Positions 9-60,600 of a stretch of 64,000 bases of DNA are shown one piece after another. The stretch is taken from positions 434,001-498,000 of the forward strand of contig JAFCMP010000531.1 in assembly GCA_017506865.1 (NCBI GenBank). The letters are read 5' to 3'. The notes beneath the pieces are model-generated. The model was not told where the DNA came from and made no database searches. It saw only the letters and a program-made list of their open reading frames with translations. The stretch's first letter is position 1. The number at the start of each line of letters is the position of its first letter. This DNA comes from Tribonema minus (Eukaryota > Sar > Xanthophyceae > Tribonematales > Tribonemataceae). A program made the position numbers and the translations under genes.

Positions 9-3000
9 TTAAACAAAATCTGGTGGAGAGTCACCCACATCCCACTCCTTGTTGGCGATGAAGACGCGCATGTCCAGCAGGGCAGTGCTCCGCAGGGACA
101 TGGGCACCGCGTGTGTGCGGCAGCGCTCCTGCTGTGCGAGCCAGCCGTACCCCGCATCGAGCTTGGGGGCCCCCCGATCATCGCTGTAGTCCTCCTGCAC
201 AGTGTAGATGTGTGTAGGTCACAACACGGCAGTGAGAATAGGGGTCGCAAAGCCCTGACAGGAAGGCTTGAAGCGAAATACCGCTTCAGGGAAGAAGCGG
301 TATTATGCTGTGGTGAATGCCTTTGCAGGTGCGTGGTTTAGAATACTGGAACTCGAGGCAGGCAAGCTAGGGGGGGGGTGATTGAGAGTTTATGTAACCC
401 ATGTACAGCGCCATTTCATGCCATAGGCAAACCACCAACACCGTTCCCCTTGCATTTACAGCCAGTGAGAGCAAGACATCTGCTGTCAAACAAAACATCA
501 TCCCTTGCGCCATGACAGCAAGGGCGAAAAAGCTAAGCAGGAGCATCCTGGACCCGCACTGCAATGACCTCTCAGAGTGCACTGACACTTTAGGCTTTGA
601 ATGAGCCTCTTTTGCCCCCCTCCCCCTGCACGCCCCCCTGTCCCTCATGCACACAACACAAGTACAGCGTGCCTCAAGCACATCACATGAGTATTATGAG
701 CTCCTGCCATCACACTGATGCACTGCCATCAAGGGAGCCTAGACCGCCTTGCTGCATCGCACAATTCAGCGCCCAAACTTCACTCAAACAAACATACCTT
801 CAGGAGCCTCACTTCACAGAAGTACATACCTTCAAGACCCTCATTTCAGCGGCCGTGAGCCGCCAGTCCTCCTCCTCAGCGTCATCCTTGGACCGCCCCC
901 CCACCCCCGCCTTCCCCTTCGTCTTCGCCTTCCCCCTGCCAGGCTTGTACCCCCCCACCTGGCTCAGCCGGTACTCGTCTATCACCATCTCCCTCTGCAC
1001 CATCTCCGGCTGTATATAGCGCGGTATCATGCGCTCGCTGCTCTTGATCTGCAGCTCGAACTGCCCTGAGCGGGCCTGCAGCGCCTTGGTGATGTGACGC
1101 GATTTGGAGCCGCTGCCCTTGAGCTTGGCCTCCTCTGACCCCTGGCGTAACACGCAGCGCGTCGTCGCGAGAGGGATCGGGAGAGGTGCACCGATGACAT
1201 CAGCTGCGTGCGCGCGCTGCAGCTGATACAAGTTCAACTTCAGCTTCAACATCGACCTCACTGTTGAGGTAGTCCAACTTCATGTTGAACACCAACGTAG
1301 AGGCGGGTGGTTAATGAGCCCGGTGCATCAGACCGGTGCGCGTGAGCGCAGATGATAGTGATGCTCACAGGATGCTCGGGCGGTAGTGACTAGGCAATCG
1401 CATCTACTACCATGTGTTGAGCACGTGTTTGCTGACATTGCTTGCGAGCGCAGAGCAATTGCAAATTATGCATGCAGTGGCAAGTTGCGTCATGGTCCAT
1501 GAGTGAGGCAGCGTCAGGCATGGGACAGATCGAAGCCGCTACTTGAAGCGTTGTCGCATAAATCATCAGAGCATATAGCTCTCTCAGCCTGAGCCGCAGC
1601 CGCACTCTGAGTCTTGTCTGCTTGCAGCACAAAGAGTGTTGGCTTCGTAGCTACCCCATGCCTCATCAACGCCATAATGTACTCCTTGTTGTGTGTATTA
1701 TCTCGGTTGCTCGGTGAAACCGCGCCCATGCCGACGATAGCCTTGACTTCTCCATATGGGCGTGATTCAAGTGTCGGGACAGACGCGGCCCGAGACTGCC
1801 AAAACCGTTACCTTGAGGTTTGAACTTGAAGTGGGTGACTCACCTCTGAGACCAGGACGACAACCCTGCCAGCGCGCTTGCGGCCCGTGCGCCCCATACG
1901 CTGCACCATGCGTACAGGGCTGAAGGGGCAAACACCAACCATGGAACAGCATAGCCATGGGGTGAGAGGGCGTAGATGCCATCAATCAAGCACGCAAACA
2001 GCGCTGGCACAATGTGTAGCTCAACGGTCCGTGAGTGCATTCCGGCCAGCTAGCTGCGCAGCACACATATGCATGCAAGTTTGAGTACATAAATTAATAT
2101 AATACTTCCAAATATGACCATGTGTTGGTTCCAAAACCTGAAATATTGCGAAACGTTGGAGTTGGGGCAAGGCTAGGGCTATTCCTGACCATGAGTATGA
2201 GCACGCCAAACCCTAAGCCTGACATTAGCCCGAAGCAGCGACAAATGTGACATGCTGTCTCGCTGAGTAGATGCCTCATGCTGGCGGGACCCGCTCAGCC
2301 ATGTACATGCGTGTTGGCATTGTGCTGGCCGCAATACCGAGGCCATGCGGTGACTACGGCATGTACCGGGCAGCACAAACTGGCGAGGGGCAATCGCTGA
2401 CAGTGAGCGCGACATGTTCCAAGCCATTCCATAATGCTGCTGCTCAAAGCGTTCGCCACGTTCGCAAGCCAGCATGCGCAACACGGCACTCATACTGAGC
2501 CGTGGTGACGTATCAGCGTATGCAGCGCTCAGCAACGGTTAAAGCAATGCTCAGTACATATGGCCATCACTTTCGCAGACCGTGGTACTTCAAATGAAAG
2601 GTTGATTTGACACAGTATGCATTTGCGTTTAGCGTGTGTGAGCGTGCAGAAAGGCCCAGCCTTACCTGCCAAGCGCGTCGAAAGAGACGATCAGATCCAC
2701 TTCGCCAATGTCCAGCCCCTCCTCCGCTATGCACGTAGCCACGAGGCAGTTGAACTTGCCAGCAAAGAACGCCTCGATCACTGCCCTCTGCTCCTTCTGA
2801 TTTTGGCCTGAGAGGGTAGGGCAGCATTGAATGCAGTGCATTTCAGGTGACGTCGCACAGTAAGACCCAGTCTCTTGCAGACATTAACATGTACGGGCAT
2901 GACGGAGGACGCAATGAGCAGCTTGTGCATTTGTGTCTCTAGCGACGTCTGTTTCAGCTTGAACTGGTGAAGCTACCGTACCAGCACTCTGCCTGACCAC

Positions 3001-57600: not shown

Positions 57601-60600
57601 GAGTGGTGCCCCGTGCAGCATTGTTGAGAGCACTGGATTCACACACCAAGGGCTTCGGTGCTCACCGTCTGAGCATCAATCATAGTTGAAGTCTCCATGC
57701 ATCATACTTGAATTCTTACAATGGGCCAAATAACATGTGAGGACCATGAGGGTGTGCTGCACAGCTCTGCAATAGGCGCTGCTGCAGCCATTTGCTGCCA
57801 GACCTGACAACAACGCCCTAACCTTACCCATAGTGCTGACAGTCTAGGCTAATGCGCAAGCCGGTGCGACAAGCTCAGCAGCATATTTGCTGGCTTCCAT
57901 CTGTCCAGGATCAGACGCGCACATACAGAAATGTGACACTGCTGCCTTCAAGTGATGGTGAAGGTGCCTGGGGCATCACCACCCAAACTTCAAGATGTCT
58001 GCTGTTGCCACTTGCGGCGCATTGTGACACGACAACATACATATTGCGGACGGTCTTACCTTGGCATCAGTGCTGATGGCATCCCAGTACTTGGGGTGGA
58101 AGGTGAAGGTCCCCTTCTTGATCTTCATGAACAGGCGCACTTGGTTTTCATCCTGGAACGGCCTGCACAATCAACAGCCAGGCAGGAACTTATGTCACAT
58201 TTGAATGTACTTCAGAGTAGTCATGAGTCATGACACGGCGGTCATCACCTGCGCTCATCAATCTTGAGACTGAGGTGCAGCATCACGATGAGCGACAGCT
58301 CTAGTCAGTTGCACTTTGTGCATCTTGACTGCCCAGTGTCAACTGTTGCAGATTTGCTTCCTCGCTGCAAGATGCTGACCTCGCAACCTCTGCAGTCTAT
58401 TTGGTGCATGATGCTGGTCGTGTCAGCTTGGAGATTTTGTCTCTCTTGGACTGCTGAACGCCCGTCGCTGAATCATCCATCTTCTACGTCAATGCAGCGA
58501 TAGCCGCCATGATGTCCCCACAGCATCGTCGACCTTCAACTATACGCGCCGCTGCCGCCGTTGCTGCCGCTGCCGCTGCTACGGTTGCCGCTGCTGCACC
58601 TGTGGCTCCCGTGCCTAGCGCCAGAATGATATCCATTGCGGTATCTGCCGTTGTTGACGCTCTAAGCTACCGGCATTTAATCGGCACAGTGCCAGCATGT
58701 TCCCCGAATGTGTGCCGCAGTAAACAGCAGCTGGTGACCATAACTGAGCACGCTCTACTCCAGAACCGCAGTGTTGTTGGACAGGGTCTGTGCATGGGGA
58801 GAACAAAATCGATGTACTTCAACTTCAACTTCAGCCATGACCCATCGCAGGGCTGCACTTACGGCACCTACCCCTTCAGCAATATGTAGCAGATCGGGTG
58901 TTAAGATCCTATTCAGCGACTCAGACACGGCATGTAGCGCATGTTGGTAGCGCTGCTACTGGATTGCCACTACAATCACAGCAACTTGCCAAACTTCAAC
59001 ATTACAGCGTCACTCACAGGTATGTAACCTCCAGCAGTATATAGCAAATCACAAAACGACTCATGAGGTCCTGCTTGGGGCGATTCAAACCCACCATACT
59101 GTTGTGCGTGCGACTGGAGTGCCAATACGATCTCTTGTCAAACTTCAACTCATCGTATCAGTCACTTACGGGTACCCCCCCAGCAGTATGTAGCAGATGA
59201 CGCCAACGCTCCACACATCCACCTCCTTGCCGTACGGCTGGCGCTTCAGTATCTCCGGCGCCACATAACCGGGGGTTCCGCACTGCGTGTGCAGCCCCTT
59301 GGAGTTGTCCGCCACCTTGGCAAAGCCGAAATCCGCAACCTGGGGAGCGTTGGTGGCGAAGCGCGAGCTGTGTCAGATGCTCAGCAAGGCCGTGGTGAGC
59401 ACTGTGGCGAGGGCGGGTGGAATGTGTCCACCGCAAGTTCCAGGTATGCGATCTACAGTTCAGTACAGTTACAGGTGCAGTCCCGAGATGCCATTTGGCG
59501 GCGGCGGCGTTTGAGTGGTTGTCGTTGAGATACTTTCAGAAGTCACACGACATGCAGATTCCGTACAGCAGCATCAAGTTAGACCATCATCTGGGCTTTT
59601 TCGCGCCCTGAGCGAGAATTCATGAAAAGTACAGTGCAGTATAGTTACGGTCCAGTACAGTACAGTAGATTAATTGACTGATGTGATTGATTGCGGATGA
59701 GACTTGCAAAGCGCAAACTTGATTGCGGCGATGAGCGCTGCAGTGGGGTTTTTGCCTTGGCTCTGCAGGCACTCGTTGGACGCGTGCAACTGGAGTGTAC
59801 AGCCAATGCACACGAGGCAGGTGGGCGGGTGGTGCAACATCTGTGAGTGGCATGTAAAGTACAGGCAGTGAAGTTGAAGTCCACTGCAGCATGTGAGACC
59901 GCCAAGCACGGACATTTGCAGGGCGCGGTGAAGTGACCTGGAGCTACAACTGCGCCCCTTCATGCGACAAGGTGGTTGAGCGCACGACCGAGCCCCAATT
60001 GATCGGTATGATATGGGACGGGTCTATGTGCTACGAAATGATGCAGTAGACAGTGCTCAGCACACACATACATACCTTGATGTTGGCGTCGTCGCTCTTG
60101 CTCACGAGCAGCAGGTTCTCCGGCTTGAGATCCCTGCGTAACGACAAAAGGCGTCAGGCCACACAAATGTGAGGAAAAAGACCTCCTTATGGCAGATATT
60201 GGGTGACTAGTAGACTTTGCGCTTGTGCTTGCCGCTGCACCATGGTGATGACTGGCAGTTGCACTTGCGCACCGCGGTGGAGCACGTCCACAACGCTTGT
60301 TTGTAGCTGCCAGGTGTACATCAGGTTGGCGCCCATACAGAAAGGGTTCAAAGGCATAGACCTGGGGTGAACTGCAAGTGGAAGTGATTCGAGCACACAC
60401 TGCAAGGTCCGGCTTCACAATTTCGACTCACCACAGCTGGGACACGATGGTATGGATGACAAGTTGAAGTGAAGGCCAATTTACGCTTCTACATTTACGC
60501 TTCTACACTGCGTGTATATATAACGGTGTACGCCCTGCATTGCATCTGAGGTGCACCTAGCTACAAAGCACAAGAAATGCCAAACACACTACAGATACAC

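Follow-up and report, generated by a model that had tools for sequence, protein, structure and literature searches.

Exon edges copied into adjoining introns in Tribonema minus, probably by short tandem duplication

Tandem genomic duplication is counted among the routes of intron gain in a review (PMC3443670), and a duplication of this kind across an intron–exon boundary has been described in a potato RdRp gene (Ma, Lan and Niu 2016, PMC4974935). In Drosophila populations, 1901 duplications were counted, mostly tandem and with a median of 367 nt, 624 of which contain exonic sequence (Emerson et al., cited in PMC2891723), and some novel Drosophila intron positions have been linked to tandem duplication (PMC2891723). 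Here we analyse a 64,000-nucleotide stretch of DNA from Tribonema minus (the window; contig JAFCMP010000531.1, positions 434,001 to 498,000, part of the contig that we call C528). At many splice junctions of this stretch, the end of an exon and the adjoining intron sequence are copied together into the intron, building ladders of pseudo-exons in genes of unrelated function.

In the potato gene, as here, the tandem piece comprises part of an intron (its 3′ part) and part of the neighbouring exon (the 5′ part of the next one), and the splice signals come from the parental copy; however, that gene records one event and a new intron with a recruited donor, whereas here many donor and acceptor events lie inside existing introns and did not reveal a new one (PMC4974935). 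The AGGT tandem-duplication model likewise has a duplicated piece that bears splice signals, but there an exonic piece with AGGT creates an intron (PMC3443670), whereas in this genome the duplicated piece crosses the splice site of an intron that was already present, and the units include intron sequence, which the AGGT model does not require. The Drosophila duplications are similarly frequent, short and tandem, and some touch exons, but the units here are smaller and the passages drawn on from PMC2891723 do not describe ladders at splice junctions. Introners also bring rapid intron change over many genes (PMC9860276), although they do so by copying one element into many genes, whereas the copies here are local to each junction. 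Single boundary-crossing duplications are therefore already known, and the density is the new part. It is high relative to shuffled sequence, inverted repeats and intron interiors, all comparisons within this species, and a literature search that lay outside bioRxiv preprints and most subscription papers found no genome-wide account of duplicated exon edges at comparable density.

Our survey sample covered 294 kb on 11 contigs (144 kb of it from C528) of a 158-Mb assembly with 554 contigs, or about 0.2% of the genome, roughly half from one contig. The exon edges of the survey are predictions of a small gene-finding hidden Markov model, trained without supervision on 244 kb, which converged on GT–AG introns with a median length of 296 bp. 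Among its products, a FANCM-type helicase gene aligns to a solved structure (E 6.6e-90) and a pair of CaM-kinase-like domains aligns to solved structures. WS/DGAT exons and leucine-rich-repeat exons match Pfam. The chlorophyll a/b-binding family has 92 matches in the genome, so the organism is photosynthetic.

For each high-confidence junction, 50 exon plus 50 intron bases were aligned to the adjoining kilobase of intron-side sequence, and 3714 intron-interior sites were treated likewise, after 4 of 195 exons had been removed as copies of better nearby exons. At score 50, a copy was found for 33 of 358 junctions (9.2%), against 3.1% per direction in intron interiors, a 3.0-fold enrichment (block bootstrap 95% range 2.0–4.4). 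Outside the window, the corresponding figures were 23 of 276 junctions, 3.2% and 2.6-fold (1.5–4.2). Stronger matches gave larger ratios: at score 80, 22 of 358 junctions had a copy against 1.2% of interior sites (5.1-fold, 3.5–9.0), and 16 of 276 did so outside the window (4.3-fold, 2.8–8.0). Donors and acceptors behaved alike at score 50 (9.8% versus 11.0%). Copies are thus commoner at exon edges than in intron interiors (2.6–3.0-fold), as the sequence-only reading of the window had expected, with a gap that narrows against GC-rich interiors unless exon copies are removed from them.

The edge copies belong to a broader population of local repeats. Within 1.5 kb, the survey sample contained 170 direct repeats, compared with 3 inverted repeats (self-palindromes left out of this count) and none in one shuffled copy. 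Merging them gave 89 events, of which 38 are wholly intronic, 31 edge-spanning, 6 intergenic, 7 exonic and 7 mixed; about 14 would be expected across edges if placement were random. Local direct duplication is therefore real and widespread, its traces extend beyond the window over the sampled contigs, and the proposal that the phenomenon is peculiar to exon edges is not supported. Duplicated units measure about 100–300 bp (median about 120–150 bp). At edges, the copies carry exon sequence joined directly to intron sequence, and the distance from unit end to splice site varies. For 51.6% of the 31 edge events and 39.5% of the 38 intron events, the alignment covers 0.85 or more of the unit; in the others, diverged or unrelated sequence lies between the copies. 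Most edge duplications concern one exon edge; units of 295 and 944 bp in the C528 flanks, and one of 240 bp at locus L014, each adjoin two consecutive predicted exons and could be cases of whole-exon duplication.

In the window itself, 17 junctions had been listed from the sequence alone. In a uniform test, an 80-bp edge (50 exon and 30 intron bases) was aligned to the 1 kb that follows it in the intron direction, and to 300 Markov shuffles of that target. Fourteen junctions beat all 300 shuffles: the acceptors 3507, 8259, 20127, 24675, 45804, 48906, 51619, 55307 and 56123, and the donors 3318, 8009, 53369, 57196 and 59170. Two further donors bring the total to 16 of 17. The one at 26166 lies on the plus strand (GT follows) and scored 73, with 0 of 300 shuffles as good; the one at 830 was queried with 12 intron bases because its 31-bp unit falls inside the stretch that the uniform test skips. 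The 5447 acceptor failed, showing no copy beyond chance (86 of 300 shuffles as good, and 103 and 54 of 300 in a retest). At 8259, the best uniform-test match (score 43) is exon-internal and the junction-spanning alignment is weak (score 42). Self-BLAST of the window, which uses no gene models, recovers most of the same pairs. The copied edges are as follows.

797..848, minus strand: donor edge 830; 31-bp unit with one outer copy (score 35, 0 of 300 shuffles as good)
3129..3392, minus strand: donor edge 3318 of the FANCM/MPH1-like helicase gene; exon copy 3264–3392, outer copy 3129–3257, unit 135
3492..3694, minus strand: acceptor edge 3507; exon-joined copy 3492–3593, outer copy 3593–3694, unit 101
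7610..8033, minus strand: donor edge 8009; own copy 8004–8033, outer copies 7820–7847 and 7610–7639
8235..8392, minus strand: acceptor edge 8259; weak outer copy about 116 bp off
20108..20282, minus strand: acceptor edge 20127; outer copies at about 20150–20191 and 20257–20282, with TTAGGG-type repeats between
24522..24688, plus strand: acceptor edge 24675 of a WS/DGAT-like gene; outer copy 24522–24577, own copy 24633–24688
26134..26364, plus strand: donor edge 26166 of a WS/DGAT-like gene, followed by a 23-bp array with about seven edge copies; exon missed by the gene model
45501..45904, plus strand: acceptor edge 45804; outer copy 45501–45701 (pseudo-exon from 45603), own copy 45719–45904
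48863..49333, minus strand: acceptor edge 48906 of CaMK-like kinase domain 2; outer copies 48998–49105 and 49210–49333
51556..51857, minus strand: acceptor edge 51619; head-to-tail pair, unit 160
53076..53396, minus strand: donor edge 53369 of a kinase exon missed by the gene model; two outer copies with a period of about 104–112
55281..55488, minus strand: acceptor edge 55307; outer copy 55413–55488, unit 132
56088..56744, minus strand: acceptor edge 56123; four outer copies, from 56274, 56368, 56492 and 56649
57062..57225, minus strand: donor edge 57196 of kinase domain 1; short-period outer copies
58855..59201, minus strand: donor edge 59170 of kinase domain 1; outer copies offset by 155 (58954–59052) and 307

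Several of these places have further features. In the 23-bp array at the 26166 donor (26143–26310), several units hold AGGT, which is both donor-like and acceptor-like, as the Rogers intron-gain model has it. The gene models leave about 20 bp between the two WS/DGAT-like genes (18237–23303, and 23323 onwards), which are arranged head to head and share an inverted 72% match (21226–21522 with 23510–23803). Adjoining the 20127 ladder is a near-perfect palindrome of about 320 bp (20330–20651), the minus strand of which folds as one hairpin (-321.8 kcal/mol, z-score -21). Short telomere-like runs of the TTAGGG/CCCTAA type occur in introns at 7645–7665, 20134–20255, 49463–49600 and 52207–52230, the tract at 20127 directly preceding the acceptor. 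On the minus strand from 48682 onwards, a helicase-like region precedes two CaM-kinase-like domains whose exon positions match, all modelled as one gene and perhaps two or three. We take the helicase-like region to be SEN1/IGHMBP2-like.

Could the gene models have produced the copies, through coding repeats within exons or real tandem exons wrongly split? Some copies were indeed modelled as exons (among the four removed, 45603–45674; also 3181–3225), and the 3318 edge rests on the gene model, its copies lying in a helicase stretch (query 368–417) outside the FANCM alignment, where homology cannot place the edge. However, the genes concerned align to FANCM and CaM kinases, and the intron parts of the copy pairs are more diverged than the exon parts. 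The model places an edge at 14 of the 17 listed junctions, and at the other three (3507, 26166 and 53369) the reading frames, inspected by eye, favour the listed edge: that at 3507 restores a FANCM-like stretch, that at 53369 closes a kinase catalytic-loop exon, and the frame preceding 26166, WVKGAREAVVSLVLNSLLY, resembles the predicted protein of the sister WS/DGAT-like gene. We therefore consider a prediction artefact very unlikely.

Related loci bear on the age of the duplications. The acceptor duplication at locus L020 has an empty site in its paralog L030, which is 94% identical over the exon and flank; between the L020 copies there is one difference in 64 exon bases and one in 48 intron bases. 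The donor edge at L013 has three extra copies, against one copy in all in its paralog L031, and both carry acceptor copies. Ladders also differ between the kinase domains of the window: three junctions are without the ladders seen at the matching junctions of the other domain, and these homologous junctions, taken as controls (57378, 59339 and 51450), showed no copy. The sequence-only reading is upheld in that some events, such as the L020 acceptor duplication, are recent. The L020 breakpoint, the one event inspected by eye, showed no microhomology, which would fit end joining of staggered breaks.

The assembly also holds near-identical regions (C90/C179 and C144/C223/C278; loci L025, L026, L032 and L033), perhaps haplotypes, with 3.9% and 7.9% mismatches in the compared stretches; indels are almost absent from the second pair in spite of its divergence. 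Third codon positions differed by 9.2% in L032/L033 and 6.8% in L025/L026 (introns 12.5% and 5.0%), compared with 7.5% in L020/L030 and 22% in L013/L031, pairs in which introns differed by 30% and 51% and align poorly. A search for a second assembly copy of the window found none for the two stretches tried; a similar search returned none for L024 and, for L013 and L020, the paralogs L031 and L030. That some regions seem to be present more than once counts in favour of an artefact in which stuttered or mis-joined reads create false local duplications. Stutter would yield identical copies, however, whereas most pairs differ by several percent or more, introns above exons, and we regard an assembly artefact as highly improbable.

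The exon-joined copy was described as always intact; this is not evidence by itself, because selection would leave one intact copy under any duplication process. The copies are direct and local, as proposed for tandem duplication that crosses splice sites and lengthens introns in unrelated genes, and two paralog pairs provide an empty site in a relative. Direct, local copies that run unbroken across the boundary, in the same way at donors as at acceptors, fit DNA-level tandem duplication better than reverse splicing, introners or retrotransposition. A 1.9-kb query with a ladder, the one tried, matched itself and short pieces of its exon (query 1352–1664), but nothing matched the ladder part, and long-distance matches within the window at E below 1e-8 were GCC-type repeats and exons of the kinase paralogs; insertion of an introner or transposon was rejected, the copies being local and direct.

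We think it likely that frequent short tandem DNA duplications occur across introns and that those spanning an edge are tolerated, with one copy pinned. A DNA-level process, presumably of repair or replication origin, would make short head-to-tail duplications throughout the introns of the genome. Where the duplicated piece includes an exon edge, selection would keep the exon-joined copy and the other would come to lie inside the intron, presumably to be spliced out with it. The intron would gain one unit in length, a spare splice site and a pseudo-exon, and repeated events would build ladders. The pinned copy would slow decay, so that edge pairs stay recognisable for longer than intron-interior pairs and edges seem enriched. 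Much of the pattern looks like ordinary tandem duplication that is visible for longer at exon edges.

Three sets of results weigh against this explanation in its simplest form. First, slower decay of edge pairs produced only 1.35–1.57-fold enrichment in simulations, compared with 3.0-fold and, for strong matches, 5.1-fold observed, and was rejected as the full cause. Second, in 31 hand-listed pairs (35 minus 4 without a junction-covering alignment), the divergence of codon positions 1 and 2 relative to intron bases was 0.38, against 0.65–0.71 under neutral simulation; under each of three settings, none of 3000 draws reached the observed value. Third, the near-identical pair L025/L026 differed by repeat insertions, none of them at a confident exon edge, and L032/L033 showed no duplication difference in the 4 kb compared; the evidence of recent gain at edges therefore comes from the two paralog pairs together with the kinase domains. 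With simulated decay too small and exon parts too little diverged, a purely neutral, unbiased account is incomplete. By simple reasoning, the slower-decay effect is capped near twofold, and by a rough estimate large deletions should matter little for the edge excess. Slower decay perhaps accounts for about half of that excess and leaves about half unexplained, and this remainder may come from an edge-biased process or from weak selection on the rungs. A comparison confined to the youngest duplications had too few events, only three edge events reaching at least 90% identity.

An edge-biased process would make exon edges true hot spots of duplication, for example where end joining repairs breaks that arise at R-loops or at the edges of nucleosomes. 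The shortfall of simulated decay argues for such hot spots, as does the recurrence of the excess outside the window. Composition is a complication, junction windows being GC-rich (median GC 0.63) and GC-rich interior windows matching more often. With GC-matched controls, the ratio fell to 1.8-fold at GC 0.60–0.66 (11.4% versus 6.4%) and to 1.1-fold above GC 0.66 (10.3% versus 9.1%, n=93 windows). Many of these interior matches, however, are copies of exons. With exon-copy windows taken out, a removal applied to the controls only, the ratios returned to 3.3-fold (11.4% versus 3.5%) and 2.5-fold, respectively, so GC content was rejected as the cause of the excess. Splice-like sites were also rejected, intron decoys staying near the interior rate (3.7% versus 3.1%). 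The reach of the effect speaks against hot spots: among intron-only 60-bp windows at score 36, 9.0% of those touching the junction matched, but the interior rate was already regained 60 bp from the edge (3.1%, interior about 3.6%), whereas units of about 130 bp arising at hot spots should extend further. Unit ends at varied distances from the splice site point the same way, and on balance we find hot spots an unlikely explanation.

Selection on the rungs would leave its mark in how outer copies diverge. In 28 aligned pairs (32 minus 4 without a junction-covering alignment), exon halves differ at 9.4% of bases (112/1187) and intron halves at 17.4% (263/1515), the direction expected if one copy is pinned. 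For the 31 pairs, the differences number 26/415 at first, 28/414 at second and 62/408 at third codon positions, and 269/1568 at intron bases; the pair at 53369 has no codon phase. Pairs count as verified when their gene has a homology match, a property of the gene rather than of each edge. Outer copies were said to lose GT or AG, yet the splice dinucleotide is kept in 29 of 31, compared with about 83% in neutral simulation. Decay through frameshifts is not as described either, frameshifting gaps being present in 5 of 28 aligned pairs. Together with the low divergence of positions 1 and 2, the retained dinucleotides hint that outer rungs are under mild constraint, as would be the case if weak selection kept them for use as alternative splice sites or exon ends or in the control of splicing. 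Third positions also differ 2.33 times as often as positions 1 and 2, compared with 1.7–1.8 under neutrality; 0.2–0.9% of draws reached the observed value. However, the bootstrap ranges of this ratio (1.6–5.3 and 1.2–3.8) contain the neutral value, and those of the positions-1-and-2 ratio (0.21–0.62 and 0.22–0.59) overlap the simulated neutral spread (0.46–0.96). The hand-listed set includes several rungs from one junction and a few pairs below the simulation cut-off, and intron divergence may overstate the neutral rate, given that introns exceed third positions greatly in the two poorly aligned paralog pairs. Unit lengths, moreover, show no bias to multiples of three (13 of 31), and the frameshifting gaps likewise speak against this reading. 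Weak selection as the main explanation thus seems doubtful to us.

A broader proposal would make exon edges preferred sites at which duplications arise or persist. About 1 junction in 11 would then carry spare copies of its splice site and of the end of its exon, and weak selection would keep the rungs as a stock of alternative splice sites for intron growth, sliding and new exons. We hold this to be possible and put it forward tentatively; tolerated tandem duplication with one pinned copy remains the explanation that we favour.

Single boundary duplications have served arguments on the origin of introns. A genome in which about 9% of sampled junctions are copied would allow the rate of duplication, the persistence of the copies, the use of spare sites and the lengthening of introns from their edges to be measured. 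The excess beyond slower decay would be a testable sign of an edge-linked mutation process or of selection on pseudo-exons.

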